A stretch of DNA of 31,265 nt, taken from a virus. How positions within the stretch are numbered: position 1 is the first letter of the stretch; every line of letters starts with the position of its first letter. A model generated the notes under the pieces. It was not told the origin of the DNA. It saw only the letters and a program-made list of their open reading frames with translations, and did not search any database. The translations under genes and the position numbers were made by a program. The stretch covers positions 1 through 31,265 of the IMG/VR virus record IMGVR_UViG_3300009537_000107; one strand, given 5' to 3'. This document shows positions 2,976 to 18,321 of this stretch, piece by piece.

Positions 2976-3499
2976 CAGGATGTCGGGGCTGCGCCGGTAT
3001 AGATCGGCGGGTGAGCAAGCGAGTTCCGCGACTGGCTGAAGGCGCAGGCAAATGCCGCGCTGTCCGCGCCTTTCGCGCCCGAATCGTAATCAGCCTTCGT
3101 GAGGTAGCAGGGCCTCTTCAGGTCTCCCAGAAGAATGGGGGTCTCGTTCGCATCCTCAAACAGAACCAGCAGCTCCTGCCCCTCCAGCGAGGCCAGGGCC
3201 ACCAATACCTCATCGCGATACTTGTCCACGATGAAATCGAGACTGGGCTTGTAGCTGCCGTTCGTCGGGCCACCCTCCCTTGGACATTTATACTGCCCGC
3301 TCTCCACCGTAATGGAGTGCTGCGTCCAGAACTTTCCCACCGCCAGGTTGATGTCAGCGGTGATTGTCCGTGTGCCTGCCCCCACGGGCGGGATAGGCCC
3401 ATCTACGTCTGCGATGGGCACCGTTTTGAAATCCAGCGTGCCGCCTTGGTTCGTGCCGCAGCTCAGCCTGGTGATTGGGGTAATTGTTGCACAACTCAT
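2975..3499 (-). CDS. Putative tail tube-like or head-tail structural protein
   Basis: A 174-residue protein beginning MSCATITPITRLSCGTNQGG. The segment order is: a Thr/Val-rich beta stretch (GTRTITADINLAV), WTQHSITVESGQY, a helix-rich middle (SLDFIVDKYRDEVLVALASL), then a beta strand with an acidic turn (ELLVLFEDANETPILLGDLKRP) and a C-terminal Gly/Ala/Ser-rich end. This pattern is reminiscent of tail-tube-type proteins in Bacteroidota phages. The protein from 7073 to 6522 has the same order of elements, so the two may be distant paralogs. The start overlaps the previous stop by 4 bases. The functional name is an inference. Confidence 0.6.
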   Translation of the reverse strand: MSCATITPITRLSCGTNQGGTLDFKTVPIADVDGPIPPVGAGTRTITADINLAVGKFWTQHSITVESGQYKCPREGGPTNGSYKPSLDFIVDKYRDEVLVALASLEGQELLVLFEDANETPILLGDLKRPCYLTKADYDSGAKGADSAAFACAFSQSRNSLAHPPIYTGAAPTS

Positions 3500-3945
3500 A
3501 CTTCTTTTAGTCTGATACAGGTGGCACCGATTTCAATGAGCTCGGTGTGGAGCTCTGCATTTGATGCAATTTCAGCGGCGGTGATGACCTCGCCGCCGCG
3601 TTTGATTTTTTTCCGCACGACCTCGTAGGCAACCTGGCCCAGGGTGAATTCTGCAAACACATCCGACGGAGGCGTCGGGTGCTCGCACTCCGCGAGCTGC
3701 CGGGTGAGCGTGGCGATCTCCGCGTTGGCCGTGGCCAGGTCAGCGGTGAGCGTGGCGATCTCCGCGTTGGCCGTGGCCAGGTCAGCGGTGAGCGTGGCGA
3801 TCTCCGCGTTGGCCGTGGCCAGGTCAGCGGTGAGCGTGGCGAGGCTAGCGGTGAGCGGCGCGATTTGCGCATTGGCGGCATCCAGATCGATGACCAGTTG
3901 CGCATTGGCGTCTTGACAGGCTTGGAGATCTTCGGGGCATCCCAT
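3496..3945 (-). CDS. Capsid-neighbour coiled-coil protein with 14-residue tandem repeat
   Basis: A 149-residue protein. Residues about 20-85 are a coiled coil built from 14-residue units (ATLTADLATANAEI, two heptads each) repeated three times almost perfectly, followed by RQLAECEHPTPP as a hinge. The C-terminal about 50 residues (FAEFTLGQVAYEVVRKKI...GGEVITAAEIASN...LIEIGATCIR) match the C-terminus of the neighbouring 105-residue protein, so the two genes share a module with different coiled-coil stalks. Likely an oligomeric head-decoration or fibre-like element; this is inferred from position two genes after the capsid protein. The repeat lies on a 42-base DNA unit, so length can change without a frameshift. 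Confidence 0.7.
   Translation of the reverse strand: MGCPEDLQACQDANAQLVIDLDAANAQIAPLTASLATLTADLATANAEIATLTADLATANAEIATLTADLATANAEIATLTRQLAECEHPTPPSDVFAEFTLGQVAYEVVRKKIKRGGEVITAAEIASNAELHTELIEIGATCIRLKEV
3703..3842. repeat. 42-base tandem repeat inside the coiled-coil gene
   Basis: Three full units begin at 3703, 3745 and 3787, and a truncated fourth begins at 3829. The units are identical or nearly so, and 42 bases is exactly 14 codons or two coiled-coil heptads. A more diverged copy seems to continue to about 3870. Confidence 0.9.
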
Positions 3946-4269: not shown

Positions 4270-5205
4270 TTAAGGCTGATCGTTAGTCACCACAACTTCG
4301 TCATTGACCATCACCATCTGCACGCCGAATACATAGTCCAGGGCAAATTGCAGTACGCGAAGAAGGCGCTGGTAGTTCACCTTGTTTGTGTCACCAATCT
4401 GATCGGTGCCGACCACCATGTTCCACTGCGGCGTGAGGATCATCCGCTGGCTGCCACCGAATGAGGGGAGCGGTGTGATCTGGCAGCGGTTTCCGCTGCC
4501 GTCGACAAATGCCTTCTCATATTGATTGTTGTAGGGCAGCGCGCCGTGCGTGCTCTGATAATCTTCGCAGTACATCGCATAGACCTCGTCGCTTAGGTAG
4601 AGCCTGCTTTTTGTCCGCTTAAGGCGCGGGGATGCGCTCCTCCACATCTCACGGAATGCGTCAATTGCATTGCTGTTGGTGATCACCCCAGTGGCCGTCT
4701 CTGTGAGGTTGGTTGCCGCGATCTCATCGGCCACGATTTTGCCGAAACCGTCGAAGAGCTCCCCGGCATTGGTCGGTGTTCCCACTGAGCGAACGCCGTG
4801 GAACAAGCCTTCGAGTTCCAGTTCCTCGTTGATCTTCTCGCCGACCATCTTGAGGATGAAGCGCTCGAAGGGCATGTCCTCCTGGTTGACGCCAGGCTTC
4901 ATCATCATGCCGAGCCAGGTGGCTCGCAGCTCTTCCGGGACGATCTCGACATCGGTCTTTCCCATTTGCACATGCAGCACACGCGGGATGAGTTCGATCG
5001 TGCCGGCATCCGGCGTGAATTGCTTGGTCCAGCCTTTCACGAGGCTTCCAAGCACCATGCTGGTGAGCACCAGCTTGTCTTTGATATTCGGCAAAAGATT
5101 CATCACGGCCACGCTCTCCATCATCACCAGTGCCTCGGTGAAGAGTTCCTGGCGGTATTCCTTGAGCTCCTGATCGAGGGCTGCGAAATTGATGCTTCCG
5201 GACAT
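4270..5205 (-). CDS. Major capsid protein (HK97-fold type)
   Basis: A 311-residue protein two bases downstream of the prohead protease gene, the classical protease-capsid order. Sequence features fit capsid proteins of Bacteroidota phages: an N-terminal helical stretch (FAALDQELKEYRQELFTEALVMME), a beta-rich segment (LIPRVLHVQMGKTDVEIVPEELRATWLG), a long spine-like helix (PFERFILKMVGEKINEELELEGLF) and a C-terminal domain with LYLSDEVYAMYCEDYQ and NMVVGTD. No N-terminal delta domain is evident, which agrees with the scaffold function residing in the protease gene. Confidence 0.85.
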   Translation of the reverse strand: MSGSINFAALDQELKEYRQELFTEALVMMESVAVMNLLPNIKDKLVLTSMVLGSLVKGWTKQFTPDAGTIELIPRVLHVQMGKTDVEIVPEELRATWLGMMMKPGVNQEDMPFERFILKMVGEKINEELELEGLFHGVRSVGTPTNAGELFDGFGKIVADEIAATNLTETATGVITNSNAIDAFREMWRSASPRLKRTKSRLYLSDEVYAMYCEDYQSTHGALPYNNQYEKAFVDGSGNRCQITPLPSFGGSQRMILTPQWNMVVGTDQIGDTNKVNYQRLLRVLQFALDYVFGVQMVMVNDEVVVTNDQP

Positions 5206-5207
5206 AA

Positions 5208-6497
5208 TTATTTGGTTTTTTGGTTTTTGCGATTCTGAATTTCCTGGTGCTTCCGGAGGAATGCAGCCTCCGGGTTGGCAGCTGCGACGGCGGACTTTCC
5301 TCCGATGTCGGCAGCTGTTGTCTTTGTCGGGCTGGCGGCAGGGGCGTGGCCGAGCGCGGCGAGCTGCCTGGTGAGCTCCGAGGCCCTTCTCTGCTCAAAG
5401 GCGAGCTGTGTGTTGGCCGAGATCAGCTGATCGTGCATCTCACGCAGGAGCGCCACGGCCTCTGCCTGCTCTTCCTCAGCATACTCGCAGCCATCCGCCT
5501 CTGCGGCGGCTTGCAGCTCAGCCACGGTGGCCGTGAGGACCGTGGCGTAGCTGCTGAGCGTGGTGAGCGCCGGGCACTCATTGGTGCCATCGATGTCTTT
5601 GTTCACTTCCTCGGCCGTCTGGCCAGAGGCGGTGACCATATCGGCGATGATGTCGTCTCGCGTCTTCTCGTCGGTGACCATGCTGTCGATCGTCTCGTTG
5701 AGCTTCGCGCTCAGCTGCGTGCCGGCGCGGGGAGCGCTGTCGAGGCCCAGCAGCGCGCGGATCTGCGCGAGGATTCCGGCCTTTGCGGGCGTTGCCGGGG
5801 CCGCTTTGCCTTTGCCTTTCTTCCGGCAATCCGGGCAGTCAGCCCCGAGCTTTGCCCTTACATCGGCCGGGATCCCCACCCCCAGCCGCTCCAGGGCTTT
5901 GAAATTCGCCGCCGCCTTCACTGGCTCGCCGATGTTGGTGATGAAGCCCTTTTCCTTTGCGGCCGCGGCGTCGAGCCAGGTGGTCTCCATGACCAGGGCC
6001 GTGACGTCATCCTTCGACATGCCTGTCTCCTTCACATAGATGGAGATGAGCTTCTGCTCCACTTGCGCCAGCATGTCGGAGTGCTTCCTGAAGTCCTCGC
6101 TGATTCCGGCAAGGTCGTCGACGTTCCATCCCCAGCCCAGGGTGGGCCGATGGACCATGTAGAAGCTATTCTCGCTCATCGTGACCTCATCGCCGGAGAG
6201 GGCGATGATGCCCGCCATCGAGGCGGCGATGCCAGAGATGTATACCTTCACGGTGGCGGCGTGAGCCTTCAGCTGCTCATAGATGAAGATGCCGTCGAAG
6301 ACCTCCCCGCCAGGGGAGTTGAGGTGAAGGTGGATCGTCTCCACACTTCCGAGGGCCAGCAGGTCGGATGCGAAATCCTTCGCGCTCACGCCCCAATAGC
6401 CAATTTCGTCGAGGATGTAGATGTCTGCCGCCTTCGCGTCGGTGGCATTGGCCTCCATTCTATACCATCCCTTGTCAATCTTCTGCTTCACAGCCAT
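5208..6497 (-). CDS. ClpP-like prohead maturation protease fused to scaffold-like tail
   Basis: A 429-residue protein. Residues about 20-200 are a ClpP/S14-type serine peptidase: LNSPGGEVFDG (60-69), the nucleophile Ser93 in SGIAASMAG, and His116 in YMVHRP, followed by WLDAAAAKEKGFI. It should cleave scaffold and capsid proteins during head assembly. The C-terminal about 230 residues contain a CPDC pair (221-224), a predicted helical module (TRDDIIADMVTASG...ECPALTTLSSYATVL, about 279-321) of a kind I recall in other phage head proteases, and a Gln/Glu/Leu-rich coiled coil (about 345-385) consistent with a scaffold. The end is basic (QNRKNQKTK). Located immediately before the capsid gene. Confidence 0.88.
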   Translation of the reverse strand: MAVKQKIDKGWYRMEANATDAKAADIYILDEIGYWGVSAKDFASDLLALGSVETIHLHLNSPGGEVFDGIFIYEQLKAHAATVKVYISGIAASMAGIIALSGDEVTMSENSFYMVHRPTLGWGWNVDDLAGISEDFRKHSDMLAQVEQKLISIYVKETGMSKDDVTALVMETTWLDAAAAKEKGFITNIGEPVKAAANFKALERLGVGIPADVRAKLGADCPDCRKKGKGKAAPATPAKAGILAQIRALLGLDSAPRAGTQLSAKLNETIDSMVTDEKTRDDIIADMVTASGQTAEEVNKDIDGTNECPALTTLSSYATVLTATVAELQAAAEADGCEYAEEEQAEAVALLREMHDQLISANTQLAFEQRRASELTRQLAALGHAPAASPTKTTAADIGGKSAVAAANPEAAFLRKHQEIQNRKNQKTK

Positions 6498-6521: not shown

Positions 6522-7073
6522 TTATCCCAGCGGGTCAGGATCCGGAGGCGGGACATCGGCAGGATCTTCCACCGGCATCTGGGCGGCGTAGCCCTTGGCA
6601 GCAAATGGGGCGCGGATGGCGCTCACCGCCTGGGCGGAGCACTGATATCCACTGAGACCTGGGGAGCCTTGCTCCACCAGGGCTGTGGTCAGGAGGCGTG
6701 CCGGTGCATCGGGCGTGCCTATACTGCGTATCTGCTCATGCTGATCCATTGTCAGGAAAATGAGCTCCGCCTGGCGGAGCCCGTCATAGATCCCCACCTT
6801 TTGGGGCTCATCCTGGGGAATCTGCCATTGCAGACTTTGCGTGAATTGCGGCCCGTGGCCGGTCTCACGCTCGGTTTCCTGGAAGCCCAGCGTCTCGGGG
6901 ATGAATCCCCAGAATGCCCAGCTGATTCCGGCATCGAGCGTGATGCTGCCGAGCAGCAGGCCGGCAGCGATGCGGGGAAAGAATGCCACGTGCTTCACTC
7001 GCACAACAAACAGCGCAAGCATGCCCGCTGGATTGGGGCCGCACATCTTCCGGACAGGGGAAATCTGTGACAT
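6522..7073 (-). CDS. Putative structural (tube/head-like) protein at start of head operon
   Basis: A 183-residue protein with N-terminal hydrophobic beta stretches (GMLALFVVRVKHVAFFP, GLLLGSITLDAGISWAFWGFIP). A turn (FTQSLQWQIPQDEPQKVGIYDGLRQAELIFLTMDQHEQIRSIG) and a Pro/Asp-rich end (PPPDPDPLG) follow. The middle-to-end layout resembles the 174-residue protein at 2975-3499 and related proteins of Bacteroidota phages. It is first in the head operon, followed after 24 bases by the protease. A tube or head-completion role is an inference; the protein could also be a membrane-associated one, but the hydrophobic stretches are short and beta-like. Confidence 0.6.
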   Translation of the reverse strand: MSQISPVRKMCGPNPAGMLALFVVRVKHVAFFPRIAAGLLLGSITLDAGISWAFWGFIPETLGFQETERETGHGPQFTQSLQWQIPQDEPQKVGIYDGLRQAELIFLTMDQHEQIRSIGTPDAPARLLTTALVEQGSPGLSGYQCSAQAVSAIRAPFAAKGYAAQMPVEDPADVPPPDPDPLG

Positions 7074-7285
7074 TCCGCAAAGTTGGCGGTGGCCGTCGGC
7101 CCTGCCTAGGAACGGAGCGCGACCGACCGGCAGACACGCGCGCGGGTATGACGCGCACGCGAGGGAAGCCAGGACTGCCCGCTTCCCTGTCTTACTCAGC
7201 CCATAAAAATATTACCCACCCAGAGCGAAACGTGCAGAATATCAGGATCAATCGCGCCAACTACATTGCGCGACCCCCCATTTTT

Positions 7286-7303
7286 TTTGTACTTTTGTAC
7301 TGA
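7286..7303. repeat. Two tandem TTTGTACT sites
   Basis: TTTGTACT at 7286-7293 is followed directly by TTTGTACTGA at 7294-7303. They belong to the same 10-base family (TTTGTACTGG) as the sites at 7348-7400, 8212-8252 and 8288-8304. Confidence 0.8.
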
Positions 7304-7347
7304 TGGCAATTTTCGGGCTCTTAGGAATTGATAGCCATCGAGTTACG

Positions 7348-7400
7348 CCAGTACAACTTTTTTTGAAAAGCCAGTACAAAGTACAAAAAGTTTGTACTGG
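7348..7400. repeat. Cluster of CCAGTACAAA sites including a 10-base inverted pair
   Basis: Sites on the plus strand read CCAGTACAAC (7348-7357), CCAGTACAAA (7371-7380), AGTACAAA-like (7379-7387) and TTTGTACTGG (7391-7400). The second and last form a perfect inverted repeat with 10-base arms and a 10-base spacer. This looks like a protein-binding cluster. Confidence 0.82.
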
Positions 7401-7407
7401 GAAATAG

Positions 7408-7434
7408 AAAAACGGGCCATTTGGCCCGCTTTTC
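7408..7434 (-). terminator. Intrinsic terminator after the 162-residue gene
   Basis: On the minus strand CGGGCC and GGCCCG arms with an AAAT loop are followed by TTTTT. It is 67 bases downstream of the stop at 7501, and is flanked by A/T runs on both sides, so it may work in both directions. Confidence 0.8.
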
Positions 7435-7500
7435 AAAACGGCTGGCTCCGGCCAGCCCGACATCACGTACTTTGACGGGGCGAATCTGCCCCAATATTTC

Positions 7501-7989
7501 TTACTCATTCACGACTAGGCGGGGGCTCTCCCCCACCCTGCAGGGGCGGTACTTCAGCCAATACCTGTAGGCGCTCTCTAGGCTATATTCCTCCTCGGTG
7601 ATGGCGTAGCTCTCCAGGAAGTCGCGCAGGCTTCCCCAGGCATCGCGCCCAGCCTGGGTCTGCGCGTCGACCCAGGTGATCATCGTCTGGGCGAAGAGCG
7701 CCCAGCAGAACTGCCCGCCGTGGAGGCGGCGCGGATCCTTGTGGTACTCGCGGCGCACATGCCTGAGGGCGAAACGGAATTTCACCGGCACCAGGCCGCC
7801 CTCCAACAGCGGCGGCAAGTCTGGGAGATCCAGGTCGAGCGCCAGAAGCAGCTGGCCGCAGGCATTTTTGCCGGAAATATGGATCGGCTCCTCGTAATGT
7901 GCGAGGAGGTACCTCCGGACCATCGGCTTCACCGGAATGAGGATCACGCCCTGGGCGCGCTCCTCCTTGGTGAGGAAGACCTGGCTCAC
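7501..7989 (-). CDS. Unknown 162-residue protein flanked by TTTGTACTGG sites
   Basis: The start is set at GTG 7989, not at an in-frame ATG further upstream, because AGGAGG sits 6 bases before it, one of the clearest Shine-Dalgarno sites in the window. GTG also overlaps the stop of the previous gene (GTGA), giving 162 residues. The sequence has a beta-rich N-terminal part (FLTKEERAQGVILIPVKPMVRRYLLAHY), a middle (PVKFRFALRHVRREYHKDPRR) and a C-terminal helical part with a pattern like a small DNA-binding or helix-turn-helix unit (FLESYAITEEEYSLESAYRYW). No enzyme motif is seen. Repeat clusters on both sides suggest it may bind them or be controlled by them; this is inference. Confidence 0.72.
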   Translation of the reverse strand: MSQVFLTKEERAQGVILIPVKPMVRRYLLAHYEEPIHISGKNACGQLLLALDLDLPDLPPLLEGGLVPVKFRFALRHVRREYHKDPRRLHGGQFCWALFAQTMITWVDAQTQAGRDAWGSLRDFLESYAITEEEYSLESAYRYWLKYRPCRVGESPRLVVNE

Positions 7990-8159
7990 CGGCGCCTCCT
8001 TTCCGGGGCGGGGGTGGAATTCTCGTGGAGCCACCGGCCGAGATCGCCGAGCCACTCAAACGGATGGGAGAGCATGCTCACCAGGAAGAGCAGCTCACAC
8101 AGCGGATGGACGATCACGTTATGCACCGACCAGGCAAGGAATATTAACAATTGTCTCAT
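7986..8159 (-). CDS. Small membrane protein (57 aa)
   Basis: Start ATG at 8159, which begins MRQLLIFLAWSVHNVIVHPL, is preferred over the longer ATG at 8276. That longer frame would translate the repeat array itself (KPVQ repeats), and a promoter-like element lies between the two starts. The 57 residues hold two hydrophobic stretches (about 2-13 and 16-31) and a C-terminus with WLGDLGRWLHENSTPAPERRRR. The motif HN-x-I-x-HPL...WLHE is one I associate with small uncharacterised phage membrane proteins. The stop overlaps the next start. Not clearly a holin; function unknown. Confidence 0.6.
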   Translation of the reverse strand: MRQLLIFLAWSVHNVIVHPLCELLFLVSMLSHPFEWLGDLGRWLHENSTPAPERRRR

Positions 8160-8180
8160 GTTGTGAACTGATGTGCCAGT

Positions 8181-8211
8181 CCAAATTAACACAATCGCCG
8201 GAATCTGCAAC
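8181..8211 (-). promoter_or_regulatory. Promoter-like element upstream of the 57-residue gene
   Basis: On the minus strand, GTTGC (8207-8211) is followed after 17 bases by TGTTAATTTGG, giving a -33-like TTG and a -7-like TTAATTTG, near the Bacteroidota pattern. The predicted start of transcription would be about 8175, with the first ATG at 8159. The repeat array at 8212-8252 begins directly upstream of the -33 element, an activator or repressor position. Confidence 0.42.
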
Positions 8212-8252
8212 TTTGTACTGGTTTGTACTGGTTTGTACTGGCTTTGTACTGG
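8212..8252. repeat. Four direct TTTGTACTGG repeats at 10-11 base spacing
   Basis: Copies at 8212-8221, 8222-8231, 8232-8241 and 8243-8252 are identical. The period equals one helical turn, so all copies face the same side of DNA. Iteron-like or operator-like array. Confidence 0.93.
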
Positions 8253-8287
8253 CTTACCTTCCTTATCCTCAGCCATTTAGGACATGG

Positions 8288-8304
8288 CAGTACAGAAGTA
8301 CAAA
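8288..8304. repeat. Two further GTACA-type sites
   Basis: CAGTACAG (8288-8295) and AAGTACAAA (8296-8304), in the orientation opposite to the four tandem copies, extend the array. Confidence 0.65.
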
Positions 8305-8342
8305 TATTATTCTATAACTGAAGATCAGAAATCACAAAAGAC

Positions 8343-8374
8343 AAAGGGCCACCCCCTTCCGGAAGCGGCCCTTT
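8343..8374 (-). terminator. Terminator of the early/replication operon
   Basis: Perfect 8-base arms AAAGGGCC and GGCCCTTT enclose an inner palindrome CTTCCGGAAG. On the minus strand it is followed by GTCTTTTGTG. It lies just 15 bases after the stop of the gene at 8389 and separates the early operon from the array and the next operon. Confidence 0.72.
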
Positions 8375-8784: not shown

Positions 8785-9018
8785 AAAAAGTAAAAAAGCA
8801 GCCCGGCAAGCTGCAAAATTCTCCAAGAGAAGATTGATGGGTCTCCCTCCCACCTCTTACCGGACTATGTTCTACTTCCTAAATGGACGGGCATGGCTGC
8901 CCGCTTGGAAAATTTTGCTCTCCAAAGATCGGGTGGCGGTTTGAATTTTCCGTTTACGAGATTGTTCAATTTTCGGGACATTCGGTTAAAAATACATGAC
9001 CAGTTGGCCCCAAATTAA

Positions 9019-11279: not shown

Positions 11280-14048
11280 TTATTCCGGATAGTTGGCTGT
11301 GCTGGGCAAATAGTCCCTGTCGGCGAAGGTGAAGAACTCGCGCGAGTTCCTTTTATCCATGGCACCCACATGGATGTGCCCCGACCGGCCGCGATCGAAG
11401 CTCTGGCCGCTCTCATCGGGGCGCTCAGGGTTGAAGTGCAATCCAGCATACCTGCAATAGGCTATGAATTTGCGTTTGATGGCGGCCGAGCTCCACATCT
11501 TTGCCGCCTTTACCTCCACCTCCACCTCATTCTGGAGCTCCTTCCGGTCAAGCCGTGTATTGAGCCGCGCGGCATCGCTGAAGTAGTGCTCCGCCCAGGC
11601 GAGGAAGTCCTCCCCCATCTCTTGGCGGTGCTTGCGGAGCTCGAGCCTGCCTGGCGGCATCTCGACGACTCCCTTCTCGAAGTACATCTGCAGGCAGCAC
11701 GCCATCAGGTTGAAGAAGTCATTCCAGTCCTCCGGCTCATAGTCGTCGAAGAACAGCCTGCCCGCGAGGCCGGCAGGCTTTCTTTCTTTATCAAAGTAGT
11801 CGGAGAAGCCGAGTAGAATTTGTCTGTCTGCGAAACTGTCACCATCGCCCAATATTGCGTGATTCGTGGACATGTAGAGCTTTATCACCTGCTCCGTGGC
11901 GAGCTTGTACTTCCCCTTCCCCTTCTTATTGATGGTGATCTTCCCCGTAACGACGGCGAAGAAGCTCTCGAAGTCGAAGTTTGCCCTAAGATCGTCCACC
12001 CAGATGACGCCCGTGCTTGGCTCCACCTCCTCGAAGAGGAATTGGTCATCTCCCATCTTCCTCTGCTTCCCATCGATGTAGACGGTGGGCACCATCTTCT
12101 CCAGGATGACGCCCAGGAGGGACTTCCCGGAGCGGCCCTGGCTTGTGCCGACCTCCGAGTTTCTCACGTCCATGGCTATTACCGCCTTCCTCATGGTCGC
12201 AGGGGAATAGCGATGCAGCATGTAGCCTATCGCCGTGAGCTTGGAGGCCAGGCTGAGCCTGTGCTCCTCTGCCTGCCAGGGCTTGTATTGCCATCCCGGC
12301 TTCTCCTCATTCTCCACGCGATCGCGCCAGTTGTACTCGCTCGCCAGATAGAGGAACTGCAGCAGGTCGAAGCGCTGCCCGCGCTCGCTGAATTCGAGCG
12401 CCCAGCCTCCTTCCCGGAGATCGCGGAAGCGCACCATCCGGTCGCCATGCCGCGTAACGTCGAAGTCGCGGATGTGGTCCTTCCATACATGGTGGGGAAG
12501 GTCTGCCTTCGCATGAATGGCGACACCTTCTTTCCGGACCTCCCATACCTGGTTCTGGAAGTAGAGAAACTGGCAATGCGGGTCGGGTTTGGCAAAATGA
12601 GTGTCGATGAACTTGAGATTGCCCAGGGCGTCTCCTCCCAGGTAGGTCTTTCCATGTCGGTACAGCATCTCCAGAACGCCCTTCTCCCCGATTCGCTCCG
12701 TGAAGTCGGTGACGTAGTCGCGGATCTGCCACGCCTCCACCTTGGAGACAATTCTGCCGTCGAGCTGAATGAAGCAATACTCCGCGAGATTGTGCGCGAA
12801 GCGGCCGTAGTCGCGGTTGCCCAGGAAGGTGATCAACCCGATGAACTGGAAATTCACCTTACCGGAGTCGTTGTAACTCCAATAGCGCTCTTCTGGAAGC
12901 ACTGGCTGCGCCAGCTCGATGGCCCCATGCGAATCAATTTTCCAGAGATCTTTCCAGAAAAGGAACTTCCCCATGGGAATGAGGATATCGCGATACTTCT
13001 TCGCGAATGCCTGTGCGTCGTGAAGTGCCCAGATCTTCTTTACTGCCGATTTTGAAGTGTCCGTCAGGGCGAATATTGTGGTCCAATCACCCTTTATCGG
13101 AGCGATGACTCCATCGTCCTTCCTGGTCTTCTCCATGGTGAGCCGCCGGAGCTCACCCTCGACCTGCGCCTCTTTGCTCTTCGCGCTGCCCGCAAGCAGG
13201 TCGTCTAGGCCCTTCTCCCTGCCGGGATTAATGTGGCCGAAGAAGAGCTCCAGATCGAGCCCTGTCTTCCCGAAGGCCGCGAAATACTCCCGGAAATTAT
13301 TTACAGCGGCAAAAAAATTGTAGGGCCGGCCATCCGCCCTCTTTCCTGGGCTCTCCGCGAGATCGTCGGATAGGTCAAAGCAGTCTGCATCGGTGAGGAA
13401 GACGATCTTCCTGACGCCGCAATTCCGGATGATCATCTCGAAGTCACGGGGCAGGCCGAGCTCCTTGTCGGCGAGGTTCTGAATTCCGCCGATTCCCACC
13501 ATGGGCATGCCGAATTTCGCGCCCATCTCGGCCTTCAGCTCTCCTTCGATGATGTATAGCGTGTCGAATTGCTTCTGAGTCTCATACATGCGAAGCGTCG
13601 CCTCCGGGTACCAGAGCCTGATTCCCGCCCCGGGCGGCGACTTGTATTTCACCGGCCTGTTGTATTTGTCCGGATGCAGGGCCGGGTTTGAATGCCTCAG
13701 CCGGTAGAACGTGCTGAGCCGCACGCCTCTCCCATCGCGCAGATAGGTTGCGCGCCTGCGGTCGAGGGTCACATAATGAAAGACCATGTCCGGCCCTTCA
13801 ACGATGTCCCAGCGCGGGCCGAACGACCCAGGCGTGATGCGCTGGATCGTCAGCTCCTCCAGAAGCTTCTCCTGCTCATAGGCGTCGACGCGGTAGATGC
13901 CCACCATGCTGCTGATGTCTCTGGAAGTCAGGCCCAGCTCACCGAGCCGCTGCTCTGTGTAGGAGAGTATCTTCTTTTTTTTCGTATTTCTCAGAGCAGA
14001 CACGGGTGGAGCTTCTAATTGTTGATTGGATTTGCCCGGCGTCGGCAC
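11280..14048 (-). CDS. Primase-helicase: TOPRIM (DUF3854-like) plus superfamily 3-type ATPase
   Basis: A 922-residue replication protein that should prime and unwind phage DNA. The start is GTG 14048; SYTEQRLGELGL (29-40) is the first conserved-looking stretch. A TOPRIM-like core is seen at residues 164-173 (LYIIEGELKA, Glu168 and Glu170) and at 216-222 (VFLTDAD), typical of metal-binding TOPRIM acids. The C-terminal ATPase has Walker A GTSQGRSGKS (634-643), Walker B VIWVDD (681-686) and a sensor STNH (727-730). The last about 130 residues carry helical DNA-binding-like segments. It is the longest gene of the early operon; the small genes after it overlap it or follow without a gap. Confidence 0.9.
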   Translation of the reverse strand: MPTPGKSNQQLEAPPVSALRNTKKKKILSYTEQRLGELGLTSRDISSMVGIYRVDAYEQEKLLEELTIQRITPGSFGPRWDIVEGPDMVFHYVTLDRRRATYLRDGRGVRLSTFYRLRHSNPALHPDKYNRPVKYKSPPGAGIRLWYPEATLRMYETQKQFDTLYIIEGELKAEMGAKFGMPMVGIGGIQNLADKELGLPRDFEMIIRNCGVRKIVFLTDADCFDLSDDLAESPGKRADGRPYNFFAAVNNFREYFAAFGKTGLDLELFFGHINPGREKGLDDLLAGSAKSKEAQVEGELRRLTMEKTRKDDGVIAPIKGDWTTIFALTDTSKSAVKKIWALHDAQAFAKKYRDILIPMGKFLFWKDLWKIDSHGAIELAQPVLPEERYWSYNDSGKVNFQFIGLITFLGNRDYGRFAHNLAEYCFIQLDGRIVSKVEAWQIRDYVTDFTERIGEKGVLEMLYRHGKTYLGGDALGNLKFIDTHFAKPDPHCQFLYFQNQVWEVRKEGVAIHAKADLPHHVWKDHIRDFDVTRHGDRMVRFRDLREGGWALEFSERGQRFDLLQFLYLASEYNWRDRVENEEKPGWQYKPWQAEEHRLSLASKLTAIGYMLHRYSPATMRKAVIAMDVRNSEVGTSQGRSGKSLLGVILEKMVPTVYIDGKQRKMGDDQFLFEEVEPSTGVIWVDDLRANFDFESFFAVVTGKITINKKGKGKYKLATEQVIKLYMSTNHAILGDGDSFADRQILLGFSDYFDKERKPAGLAGRLFFDDYEPEDWNDFFNLMACCLQMYFEKGVVEMPPGRLELRKHRQEMGEDFLAWAEHYFSDAARLNTRLDRKELQNEVEVEVKAAKMWSSAAIKRKFIAYCRYAGLHFNPERPDESGQSFDRGRSGHIHVGAMDKRNSREFFTFADRDYLPSTANYPE

Positions 14049-14390: not shown

Positions 14391-14455
14391 ATAAATTTAC
14401 CAATTAGTGCAGGGCCGCGCCAAATGCGTTAGTGTTTTCGGCGAAAGTCGCAAAC

Positions 14456-14483
14456 TTTGAACTAAATGTTTTGAACTTTTAAC
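14456..14483. promoter_or_regulatory. Paired TTTGAACT / TTTTGAACTTTTAAC operator-like sites
   Basis: Two similar sites lie in the divergent intergenic region: TTTGAACT (14456-14463) and TTTTGAACTTTTAAC (14469-14483). A third and fourth version, GAACTTTTT (18166-18174) and GAACTTTTAAC (18187-18197), lie in the other regulatory region. They may be binding sites of one of the two regulators coded on either side. Confidence 0.45.
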
Positions 14484-14502
14484 CACATCGTCAATACCTT
14501 TG
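14470..14502 (+). promoter_or_regulatory. Bacteroidota-type promoter for the repressor gene
   Basis: TTTG (14470-14473), then 21 bases, then TACCTTTG (14495-14502), matching the TTTG and TAnnTTTG elements. Transcription should begin near 14508-14510, about 40 bases before the ATG at 14548. The operator-like repeat covers the upstream element. Confidence 0.68.
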
Positions 14503-15066: not shown

Positions 15067-16323
15067 ATGCTTCCCCCAATGTTCACGGAGATCACAATGA
15101 CCTGGAGCGCGAAGGTCGTTTTGCGAAAGGATCACATTTGCACGGATGGCACATGCCAGGTAGTGCTTCGCGTGCGCGTCAATCGTCTTCGCAAGCGCGA
15201 ATTTCCTTTCGGCCACCGCGTGCGAATGGTCGATTTCGATGAGGTCACCGGGCGTATGCGCCCGAATGCAGCCAGCGCGAAAGATTTGAACTTGCTTTTC
15301 GATCACGCACGCGCCAGGGCGACTGCGATCTTCGTGGAATTCCGCCTGGCCAGCCGCGAGCTCACCCTGGAGAAATTCGCGCATGAATACAAGCATCCGC
15401 ATTCTCGGCAGGATTTCCTCGCATTCTGGCGCGAGGAGAGCAAGCGCCGCTGGAATCGAGAGAACATCAGCGATGCCACCCGCACGATCGACAAGACGGT
15501 CATGCGGAAGGTGTCGGAGTTTCATCAGTTCTGGCTCCTGGAAAGCCGCCTCGACGATGACCGTCCACTATGCTTTACAGATGTGGACAAGCGCTGGATG
15601 GAAGACTTCGACGCCTGGCATTTGCGCAAGCTCCGGCGGCTCAAGGGGCGCGATTTGGTGAACCATGGCGCGGGGCCCCGCTGGAATGCCATAAAGGTGA
15701 TCAAGGTCTATTTGCGCATCGGAGCTGGCCAGCATGGCGCTGTGATAGCGAAGTCTGCTTTTGATTTCAAGACGGTTGCTCCGGTCGATCGCAGGTGTGC
15801 GCTCAGCATGCAGGAATTCTCCCGGCTTCGATCGCTTGAGAAGGAGGAGCGCACGCCTGCGCATCTGCGCAATGTGCTACGCTACTTCATCTTCGCATGT
15901 GTCACCGGCTTGCGGATATCTGACATCCGGCGCATCAGGTGGGAGCTGATCGAAGAAAATGTCCTAGAATTCGTGCCCTTCAAAACGCGGCGGTCCAAAC
16001 TGGCGCCGCTGCGGATCCCGCTCACCACCATCGCCCAGTCGATGCTTCCAGAGCAGCGGCCGCGCGGGCGCATATTCCCTGTATACTCGGATCCTGTCAC
16101 GAACAGACACCTGAAAGACATCGCGGATCGCGCAGCATTGTCTCCAAAGCTCAGCTTCAAATGGAGCAGGGACACATTCGCCACGCTCTTCCTTGAGCTG
16201 GGAGGGACGGTAGAGGTACTGCAGCAGATACTCGGGCACACCAAGATCCAGCAAACCATGAAGTATGTGACGATCACTGAGCAGCGGAAGGCTCAGCAGA
16301 TGACGGCCTGGGACCTGCTATAA
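15067..16323 (+). CDS. int: Tyrosine integrase with atypical box II
   Basis: A 418-residue tyrosine recombinase that should insert and excise the phage. Catalytic positions: Arg283 (TGLRISD), Lys306-311 region (FKTRRSK), Arg368 (KWSRDTFATL), His391 (ILGHTK) and Tyr400 (MKYVTI). The usual His of the HxxR motif is Lys365 here, and the residue after Arg368 is Asp instead of His; both depart from the common H-x-x-R-H. The N-terminal about 110 residues look like the arm-binding region of Bacteroidota integrases. The ATG at 15100 (MTWSAKVVLRKD) is an alternative start with GGAG 7 bases upstream. Confidence 0.93.
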   Translation: MLPPMFTEITMTWSAKVVLRKDHICTDGTCQVVLRVRVNRLRKREFPFGHRVRMVDFDEVTGRMRPNAASAKDLNLLFDHARARATAIFVEFRLASRELTLEKFAHEYKHPHSRQDFLAFWREESKRRWNRENISDATRTIDKTVMRKVSEFHQFWLLESRLDDDRPLCFTDVDKRWMEDFDAWHLRKLRRLKGRDLVNHGAGPRWNAIKVIKVYLRIGAGQHGAVIAKSAFDFKTVAPVDRRCALSMQEFSRLRSLEKEERTPAHLRNVLRYFIFACVTGLRISDIRRIRWELIEENVLEFVPFKTRRSKLAPLRIPLTTIAQSMLPEQRPRGRIFPVYSDPVTNRHLKDIADRAALSPKLSFKWSRDTFATLFLELGGTVEVLQQILGHTKIQQTMKYVTITEQRKAQQMTAWDLL

Positions 16324-16386: not shown

Positions 16387-17643
16387 TTACTCCACGCCCT
16401 GCAGCTGCCGGGCATGGGGATATTTCTTCAAGAATTCGTCGACCTTGTGCGGCTGCACCAGGATGACTGTGCGTCGGTTGATTTCCCACTTTTGAGCGGT
16501 TGCCTTGAGGCGTTTCCCCGCAGACAGATCCACTGTGCGCTTGCCTTCCTCGATCACCCGCCAGGCTTGCTCACGCTCCTTTTGTTTTGCCAGTTTGCGT
16601 TTGGCGGCGGAAATGAGCTTGGTTTCTTCCCGGCGCTCCATTTTGCGCTTGCGCTCCAGCTCACGGCGTTGGGTGTAGTCTTCACGTTTGGTGGCCGGTA
16701 GTTTTTTCACAGCCATAGGTTTCGATTGCTTACGGACTTCCTTTTCCACAGCCACCTTCAGCTGTTTTTTGGCCTTCCGCACGACCTTCTTTTGTTCGCG
16801 ATGGTTGTCAGCTTCGTATTTCTGCACCCATTCCAAGAGTGTTCGCAGCAATTCCTCATCACCGACCATCGCACGGCCATCTTCGATGCGCTTGCTGATG
16901 ATGGAGATACGTCTTTTTGTGACGCGGTATTCGGGGTTGTTGTTGGCGGATCCCACGCTTGCATTTTCCGACCGGGTGCGCATCACCAGGTTGGAGATGT
17001 CGCAGTTGAGCGGGTCACGGTCTAGGTGGCAAATCAGCATACCCTTGGGGATGGGCCCATGGGCTTGTTCCCAATTCCACCTAGCCAAGAATTCCATGCC
17101 GCGCCCGGGTATCTTGATCTTACGGATGGGCCTGCCCGAATAGTCTGGCACGATCGACTCGGCAAAATCGGGAAGCGTGGTATGTGGGAGATGTCCTTTC
17201 TTGAATTGCGTTTCGGCTGCTCTGCCACCTGGCTTGAAACCGATCATTCCTTTGTTCCAGGAAAGATGGCCCTTCCCCCATTTGCCCATGTTGAATTCTC
17301 GGGCAATGCTTAGCTTCTCATCCTTGCTGCGTGTGAGCCCATTATCAAACAGAATGCGGGCCACAAACTGGGCATCCCTGCCAGGCAGGAAATCGATGAT
17401 TTTGTAGGCCGGCAAATCCTGGTAAAAAGCCCTGATGAGCATCACTTCACAGGGTCTTCGTGCGCCGGGAAACCTGACGTAATCATTATCCTTACAATGG
17501 CGACGTAGTCCCATCCGCTGCACGATGCTCTTGATATTATTGCGCGGCAAGCCAAAGCGCAAAGCAAGGCCAGCAATGGGTGTAATGTCGTACAGGTGGC
17601 TGAGCAGCTCTTTGTTTTCCTGGGTCCAGAAGGTTTTGGGCAT
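16387..17643 (-). CDS. HNH endonuclease with N-terminal HTH-like, NUMOD-like and basic coiled-coil regions
   Basis: A 418-residue protein with start ATG 17643 (MPKTFWTQENKELL), because the open frame upstream to 18006 crosses the tRNA-like element. N-terminal residues 1-50 and 60-105 look like DNA-binding helices (WTQENKELLSHLYDI, NIKSIVQRMGLRR). Two KGH motifs lie at 123-152 (GHLSWNKG, FKKGHLPH), reminiscent of NUMOD modules. The HNH centre is ICHLDRDPLNCDISNL at 204-219. The last about 160 residues are an unusually basic Lys/Arg/Glu coiled coil. Likely a homing-type or freestanding nicking nuclease; its place near the tRNA-like site and integrase is notable. Not a packaging-cluster HNH. Confidence 0.85.
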   Translation of the reverse strand: MPKTFWTQENKELLSHLYDITPIAGLALRFGLPRNNIKSIVQRMGLRRHCKDNDYVRFPGARRPCEVMLIRAFYQDLPAYKIIDFLPGRDAQFVARILFDNGLTRSKDEKLSIAREFNMGKWGKGHLSWNKGMIGFKPGGRAAETQFKKGHLPHTTLPDFAESIVPDYSGRPIRKIKIPGRGMEFLARWNWEQAHGPIPKGMLICHLDRDPLNCDISNLVMRTRSENASVGSANNNPEYRVTKRRISIISKRIEDGRAMVGDEELLRTLLEWVQKYEADNHREQKKVVRKAKKQLKVAVEKEVRKQSKPMAVKKLPATKREDYTQRRELERKRKMERREETKLISAAKRKLAKQKEREQAWRVIEEGKRTVDLSAGKRLKATAQKWEINRRTVILVQPHKVDEFLKKYPHARQLQGVE

Positions 17644-17747
17644 GGGGCTTCGGATAAAATCTCTCTGAGTCGGTAGTTGATGGCCAGGACATTGCCTGCC
17701 ATGTGAAAGAACTGCGGCCCTGGGTGGAATGATAATCCCCAGGCCTT

Positions 17748-17812
17748 TGGTGGAGCAAGGCGGAGTCGAACCACCGTGCCGACCGGACATTATCGGCGCG
17801 CCTCTTTGCCCC
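17748..17812 (-). other. tRNA-like element or tRNA-Ala/tmRNA 3' end (candidate attP)
   Basis: On the minus strand: 5' GGGGCAA (17812-17806), a 30-base middle, a T-arm with GGTGG/CCGCC stem and loop TTCGACT (17775-17759), then TTGCTCC and ACCA. GGGGCAA pairs with TTGCTCC over 7 positions, with a G-U at position 3-70, the alanine/tmRNA identity pair. The middle can only form a GCCGA/TCGGC hairpin and lacks a D-arm, so this is not a normal tRNA. A T-arm plus acceptor end is the usual identity segment of phage attP sites in tRNA or tmRNA genes. The 5' complement may be chance. Confidence 0.42.
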
Positions 17813-18088
17813 AAGTCCCCCGGCGCAGCTGCCGGGGGAGACCGAAAACCATTTCGGTTGCCCCTGCCGCAACTGGCTGGGAACCTGAATAATAAAACTC
17901 GAATGAGTACAAAACAAAGAACGCAGTTACCATTGACGCCGGGTGCAGGTATCGGGCCTGCGCACCCCTTCAAATCTCTTCTCCATTCCCCGGCTCCTCC
18001 CCTCATATCCCCCTTCTATCGGATCGATAGCAGCCTGGCCTCTCTTCCTCAACAGGCTGCCGCTGTAGCCTTTCCTTTCCAAAAATTC

Positions 18089-18135: not shown

Positions 18136-18321
18136 TTGCTCAATCAATCAATGACCAAAAGTGCCGAACTTTTTGCAAAATGTCAAGAACTTTTAACGAA
18201 ATGTCTTTGCATTTTCACCTAATCGCTCAGAATAGAGCTTTCAGCATTGCAATTCATGGCGTCAATGGAATTGGGCAGGGTTTTTGAAAAAAAAAAGGTT
18301 CAGAAAAAAAAAGTATGACAA

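Follow-up and report, generated by a model that had tools for sequence, protein, structure and literature searches.

Arrays of short repeated sites before the structural genes of Bacteroidota viruses, a candidate control region for late genes

The ribbon-helix-helix proteins MetJ, Arc and omega bind cooperatively to operators of tandem sites with steps of 7–11 bp. Ribbon-helix-helix proteins also bind centromeres composed of tandem repeats. The iteron origins of lambda, P4 and SPP1 are clustered direct repeats that adjoin replication genes, sometimes at two loci. The repressor of cluster A mycobacteriophages recognizes many short asymmetric stoperators, which are spread genome-wide and whose specificity is particular to the lineage (PMC6550527, PMC9283540). 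Arrays of operators or iterons are of a kind already known. The protein family and the diversification of sites at similar geometry reported here appear undescribed within the searched literature. No description of late-gene switching in these phages was found in the open-licence literature, and neither promoters nor a replication origin turned up in a search of two papers on phages carrying the family (PMC10367356 and PMC8776804).

The locus of this study lies in a 31,265-base virus record, here called the window. Its gene P162 is comparable to BT-TP2 gp8, Leef_1 gp39 and proteins of Porphyromonas gingivalis phages, which share its size of about 160 residues, its place before the head operon and the possession of an array of tandem sites of their own. 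This phage differs from the BT-TP2 gp8/Leef_1 gp39 family in having another site, two arrays and an extra small gene. As in cluster A the sites are many, short, asymmetric and lineage-specific, with a single phage binder that is putative here; unlike the stoperators, they are packed into one or two arrays. The steps between sites recall MetJ, Arc and omega, as does the strand-helix-helix predicted for the N-terminus of the P162 family. The family departs from those proteins in its longer loop, its large helical C-terminal part and its lack of a significant fold or sequence match. Unlike the lambda, P4 and SPP1 origins, the present array goes with the late operon and is kept where the primase has changed.

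Nearly all genes of the contig point leftward, the early genes coming first, then P57 and P162, then the structural genes, which also include terminase and portal. The features around the arrays are as follows.

4270–5205, minus strand: major capsid protein, late operon
5208–6497, minus strand: ClpP-type prohead protease, late operon
6522–7073, minus strand: first late-operon gene after the left array; its true start may be downstream of 7073
7078–7085, minus strand: candidate -7 box CAACTTTG before the late operon, one mismatch, low information
7286–7400, minus strand: left array, in the gap separating P162 from the late operon (pairs 7286/7294 and 7371/7378, single 7348, inverted 7391)
7286–7302, plus strand: left arm of the inverted repeat (outer pair), 94% complementary to 8288–8304
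7407–7434, minus strand: terminator after P162, directly before the left array (fold -21 kcal/mol, z -4.6)
7501–7989, minus strand: P162, candidate array binder, probable remote member of the BT-TP2 gp8/Leef_1 gp39 family
7986–8160, minus strand: P57, small hydrophobic protein matching phrog_36447 (annotated as unknown function)
8176–8304, minus strand: right array, upstream of the P57/P162 operon (pair 8287/8295, direct 8212/8222/8232/8243, inverted 8176)
8182–8189, minus strand: candidate Bacteroidota -7 box TTAATTTG, one mismatch to TAnnTTTG, low information
8288–8304, minus strand: right arm of the inverted repeat (outer pair), partner of 7286–7302
8343–8374, minus strand: early-operon terminator, directly before the right array (fold -31.9 kcal/mol, z -6.2)
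11280–14048: primase sharing a profile with DUF5906, early genes
7371 (-), 7391 (+), 8212 (+), 8222 (+), 8232 (+), 8243 (+): exact copies of TTTGTACTGG
7286 (+), 7294 (+), 7348 (-), 7378 (-), 8176 (-), 8287 (-), 8295 (-): the seven weaker copies of the site

The six exact copies of TTTGTACTGG are the only ones in the contig, and every one is inside the two clusters. Allowing one mismatch, the 8-base core CAGTACAA has 13 copies in the 1.03 kb of 7280–8310 and 16 in the remaining 30 kb. This is a density of 12.6 versus 0.53 per kb, about 24 times that of the rest of the contig, and the Poisson probability of the clustering is about 1e-10 for the left cluster and 2e-12 for the right. A preliminary description of this DNA had counted about eleven sites in two clusters flanking a gene; with up to one mismatch the count is now 13, at 7286–7400 and 8176–8304. 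The four direct copies at 10–11 base spacing (steps of 10, 10 and 11 bp) and the inverted pair at 7371–7400, both noted there, were found again. The pair 7371/7378 is spaced by 7 bp and the pair 8287/8295 by 8 bp. The steps of 7, 8, 10 and 11 bp within the contig are compatible with the family-wide spacing. The outermost site pairs form a 17-bp inverted repeat. The suggestion that the spacing equals one helical turn does not generalize: across the family, a same-strand spacing of 8 bp is by far the commonest (122 cases), followed by 10 bp (41 cases).

On the coding strand, a stable terminator hairpin immediately precedes each cluster, which is thus placed at a point from which transcription would need to begin anew. 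The candidate box at 8182–8189 comes directly after the four direct sites and has a TTG about 20 bp upstream. The small gene beside P162 had been described as a membrane partner, which holds only in part. The protein is small and hydrophobic, but the 96-residue frame (7986–8276) crosses the array, and its true start is probably at 8160, which gives 57 residues.

Rfam gave no match within the window. A public-genome search with the exact tandem 10-mer returned 27 genome and three viral matches, which are unrelated and mostly 12-nt coding repeats. About seven degenerate TTTGTACTGG copies at 10-bp steps occur near position 632 of a Clostridia contig (L034), seemingly a simple repeat. Elsewhere in the window, a second repeated element, with the core GAACTTTTAAC beside AAATGT, is found at 14444–14488 and 18158–18223, left of the XRE-regulator and integrase genes and again right of an HNH gene; it may represent repressor operator sites. 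Coding tandem repeats of 21 bp occupy 3692–3888 in the gene at 3496–3945, whose repetitive product is possibly a coiled-coil protein. The 539-residue frame at 16387–18006, adjoining the integrase, has an HNH_3 domain, and its first part may be noncoding.

Direct searches with P162 in phages, plasmids, and viral and genome contigs found no relatives. Relatives were reached instead through TerL and the primase, which led to Bacteroidota siphophages of the same gene order. In these a gene of about 160 residues stands in the place of P162, before the protease, as Leef_1 gp39 and BT-TP2 gp8. Relatives of BT-TP2 gp8 occur in 24 other phage records, and scanning with an alignment yielded 64 viral loci. 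Leef_1 gp39 falls in the BT-TP2 gp8 family with an E of 5e-7 among 871 ORFs. A wide search of 395 genomes around a family-bearing Bacteroidales genome gave one match only for the family. The gene at 6522–7073 has weak similarity to the gene preceding the protease in Mea-Yong924-1.

P162 is about 20% identical to the family. By profile it scores an E of 0.07–0.3 among 871 ORFs, below significance, and it was missed by a profile of 50 members built without Leef_1. Its hhalign P is 0.012, versus 0.34–0.35 for two neighbouring control proteins. When P162 is compared with about 920 sequences, Leef_1 gp39 and the Mea-Yong homolog come out as its two best non-self matches, the latter itself weak by profile (E 0.01–0.07). 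AlphaFold models of P162 and of the member L056 have pLDDT of 70.5 and 85.8. The sole significant BFVD match of both is Leef_1 gp39, with E of 7.0e-4 and 6.7e-4 and moderate TM-scores of 0.47–0.60, an agreement that is not fully independent because the P162 model was built on the family alignment. The traits of the family are also seen at P162: clustered sites at 7–11 bp spacing near the gene, and a gene and array placed at the beginning of the protease/capsid operon. Weak sequence similarity, model similarity, size, gene order and the array together make it likely that P162 belongs to the BT-TP2 gp8/Leef_1 gp39 family.

No match in Pfam, NCBIfam, PHROG or PDB names the family, and no DNA-binding fold was recognized for it. 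Compared with ribbon-helix-helix proteins, the models have strand, helix and helix in order, with only weak matches (E 0.2 and 1.4) and none in PDB.

For 52 non-redundant members with enough upstream DNA, arrays were scored over the 450 bp in front of the gene against 100 dinucleotide shuffles. A clade-specific 8-mer array beats all 100 shuffles in 40 of the 52. The median is 12 sites per array versus five in 465 control windows, and at least nine sites occur in 41 of 52 arrays versus one of the 465 control windows. The AT-rich Leef_1, L037 and L064 do not rise above the 100 shuffles; when exact 8-mers were tested against 500 shuffles, 2, 23 and 5 of these reached them. In 23 genomes the exact sites occur almost only within the array and are rare elsewhere. 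In place of an ACA-type array, the distant member L049 has GGAACG sites at 11-bp steps, some inverted, upstream of 4001; they are not significant against shuffles.

The clade-specific sites are GTTACAAA, GTAACAAA, GTCACAAA, CGTACAAA, GTCCAACA, TCCTACAA, GTCATACA, AACTACA, ATCGTGCA and CCTACCACA, with CCAGTACAAA in this contig; most share ...ACA(A). The letters vary between clades and the layout stays alike. Several clades have a distal pair or triple at 8-bp steps, a middle block at 8–12 bp and a proximal triple at 8 bp. Among the arrays found in many Bacteroidota viruses, the clusters of the contig prove to be a highly divergent case. The preliminary description had taken absence of the site next to homologs as the mark of a random repeat. 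The 10-base site itself is indeed absent there, but almost all homologs have arrays of their own sites, spaced in a similar way.

The P. gingivalis phages have a second cluster, of three sites in each phage's own motif, beside the 3′ end of int and about 30 kb from the array. Two such mini-arrays (L127 40579–40602 and L128 46406–46431) share a similar flank and lie past a terminator-like hairpin, in a convergent gap beside the integrase gene.

The position of the array is tied to the beginning of the structural operon rather than to the P162-family gene. In most phages it is upstream of that gene, and 48 of the 52 members have a protease-like gene no more than 3.5 kb downstream. In L080, L083, L090 and L095 there is no array upstream of the family gene; 11-bp repeats are found just downstream of it, directly before the head genes. 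In this contig, arrays stand on both sides of P162. Mea-Yong924-1 has its homolog among the early genes, at 8977 behind the primase, and its array about 2.3 kb further along; all eight TCGGACA copies of that genome are in one array before the operon of RadC, portal and DUF6712 (adaptor). Arrays co-occur with two unrelated primases, one in this contig, Leef_1 and BT-TP2, the other in the P. gingivalis phages and Mea-Yong924-1. In the BT clade a TAnCTTTG promoter box is conserved 20–41 bp before the start codon, and the nearest site is often 90–180 bp from the box, far for a simple activator.

The arrays are best read, with a probability of roughly 60%, as a control region for the late (structural) genes bound by a phage protein, P162 being the leading candidate. 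This operator-array reading is preferred because, however the genes are arranged, the array goes with the beginning of the structural operon. Since the motif differs among related phages, the binder is probably encoded by the phage. Such a protein, possibly P162, would bind the many short sites cooperatively at steps of 7–11 bp and build a nucleoprotein complex between the early terminator and the late promoter box, the latter conserved in the BT clade. The complex would set expression, the right array acting on P162's own operon and the left array on the head operon. In this phage a terminator separates the two operons, and accordingly an array stands in front of both. In a Mantel-type comparison, motif distance correlates with protease distance at rho 0.47 and with P162-family distance at 0.33 (partial correlations 0.39 and 0.17). 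The motif thus tracks the protease better than the P162 family, and the covariation does not single out the family as the binder.

The preliminary description had offered two readings. Of these, a cooperative operator array of a late regulator is the one preferred here, and iterons of an origin are its main rival, though we regard an origin as unlikely. The array would be a replication origin and the P162 family an initiator or replisome organiser; the two clusters of the contig and the extra cluster of the P. gingivalis phages would then resemble the paired origins of SPP1 or the ori and crr of P4. Dense iterons of mixed orientation, in about 300 bp of intergenic DNA at the end of the replication genes, suit an origin, as does the mini-array about 30 kb away with each phage's own motif. 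However, the position of the array follows the structural operon and not the replication genes, and the array persists where the primase is replaced by an unrelated type, the linkage to the P162 family itself remaining. GC skew does not switch at the array, which is uninformative as an origin test where nearly all genes point one way and so counts at most weakly against it. A partition centromere or a packaging site (cos or pac) is improbable. Tandem repeats of 8–11 bp do resemble those bound by ribbon-helix-helix proteins, but no partner NTPase was noticed near the array, and integrated prophages do not need partition. A cos site in particular is disfavoured, since Leef_1 has cos 3′ ends by PhageTerm (PMC8776804) and the first base of its record is next to TerL, with the array about 8 kb away.

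Two readings that place the repeats at the end of an element were rejected, as the arrays are internal and syntenic in integrated prophages and lie neither at element ends nor at an att junction. It is very improbable that 7286–8304 is a small mobile element with the inverted repeat and subterminal sites as transposase-bound ends. The 17-bp repeat lies exactly at both outer ends, with further repeats subterminal to it, but the site pairs within each array explain it, and there is no transposase and no evident target duplication in the flanking bases. Gene and array also keep their synteny across dozens of phages, most of which have an array on just one side. There is hardly any chance that the sites are the arm-type integrase sites of an attP. 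Their tandem 10–11 bp spacing is like that of the lambda P′ arm, and a tyrosine integrase is encoded at 15067–16323; yet about 800 bp separate the clusters of the contig, int is about 7 kb away from them, and in P. gingivalis prophages the array is about 10 kb inside the integrated genome.

Returning to the control of late genes, a wider proposal can be made tentatively, at somewhat less than even odds. Temperate Bacteroidota siphophages of gut, oral and marine origin may possess a late-gene switch made of a DNA-binding protein of new fold and an array of 8–16 sites that are fixed in layout and whose recognition sequence diversifies as a set between lineages. If so, the switch would be a late-step counterpart of heteroimmunity, and the divergence of its sites would perhaps keep a phage from being cross-activated by prophages in the same host or pirated by satellites. 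The array would mark the late-gene control region (or origin) in many gut Bacteroides and Porphyromonas prophages, and its ten or so or more natural site variants at similar geometry may provide a handle on how DNA recognition diverges among phages.
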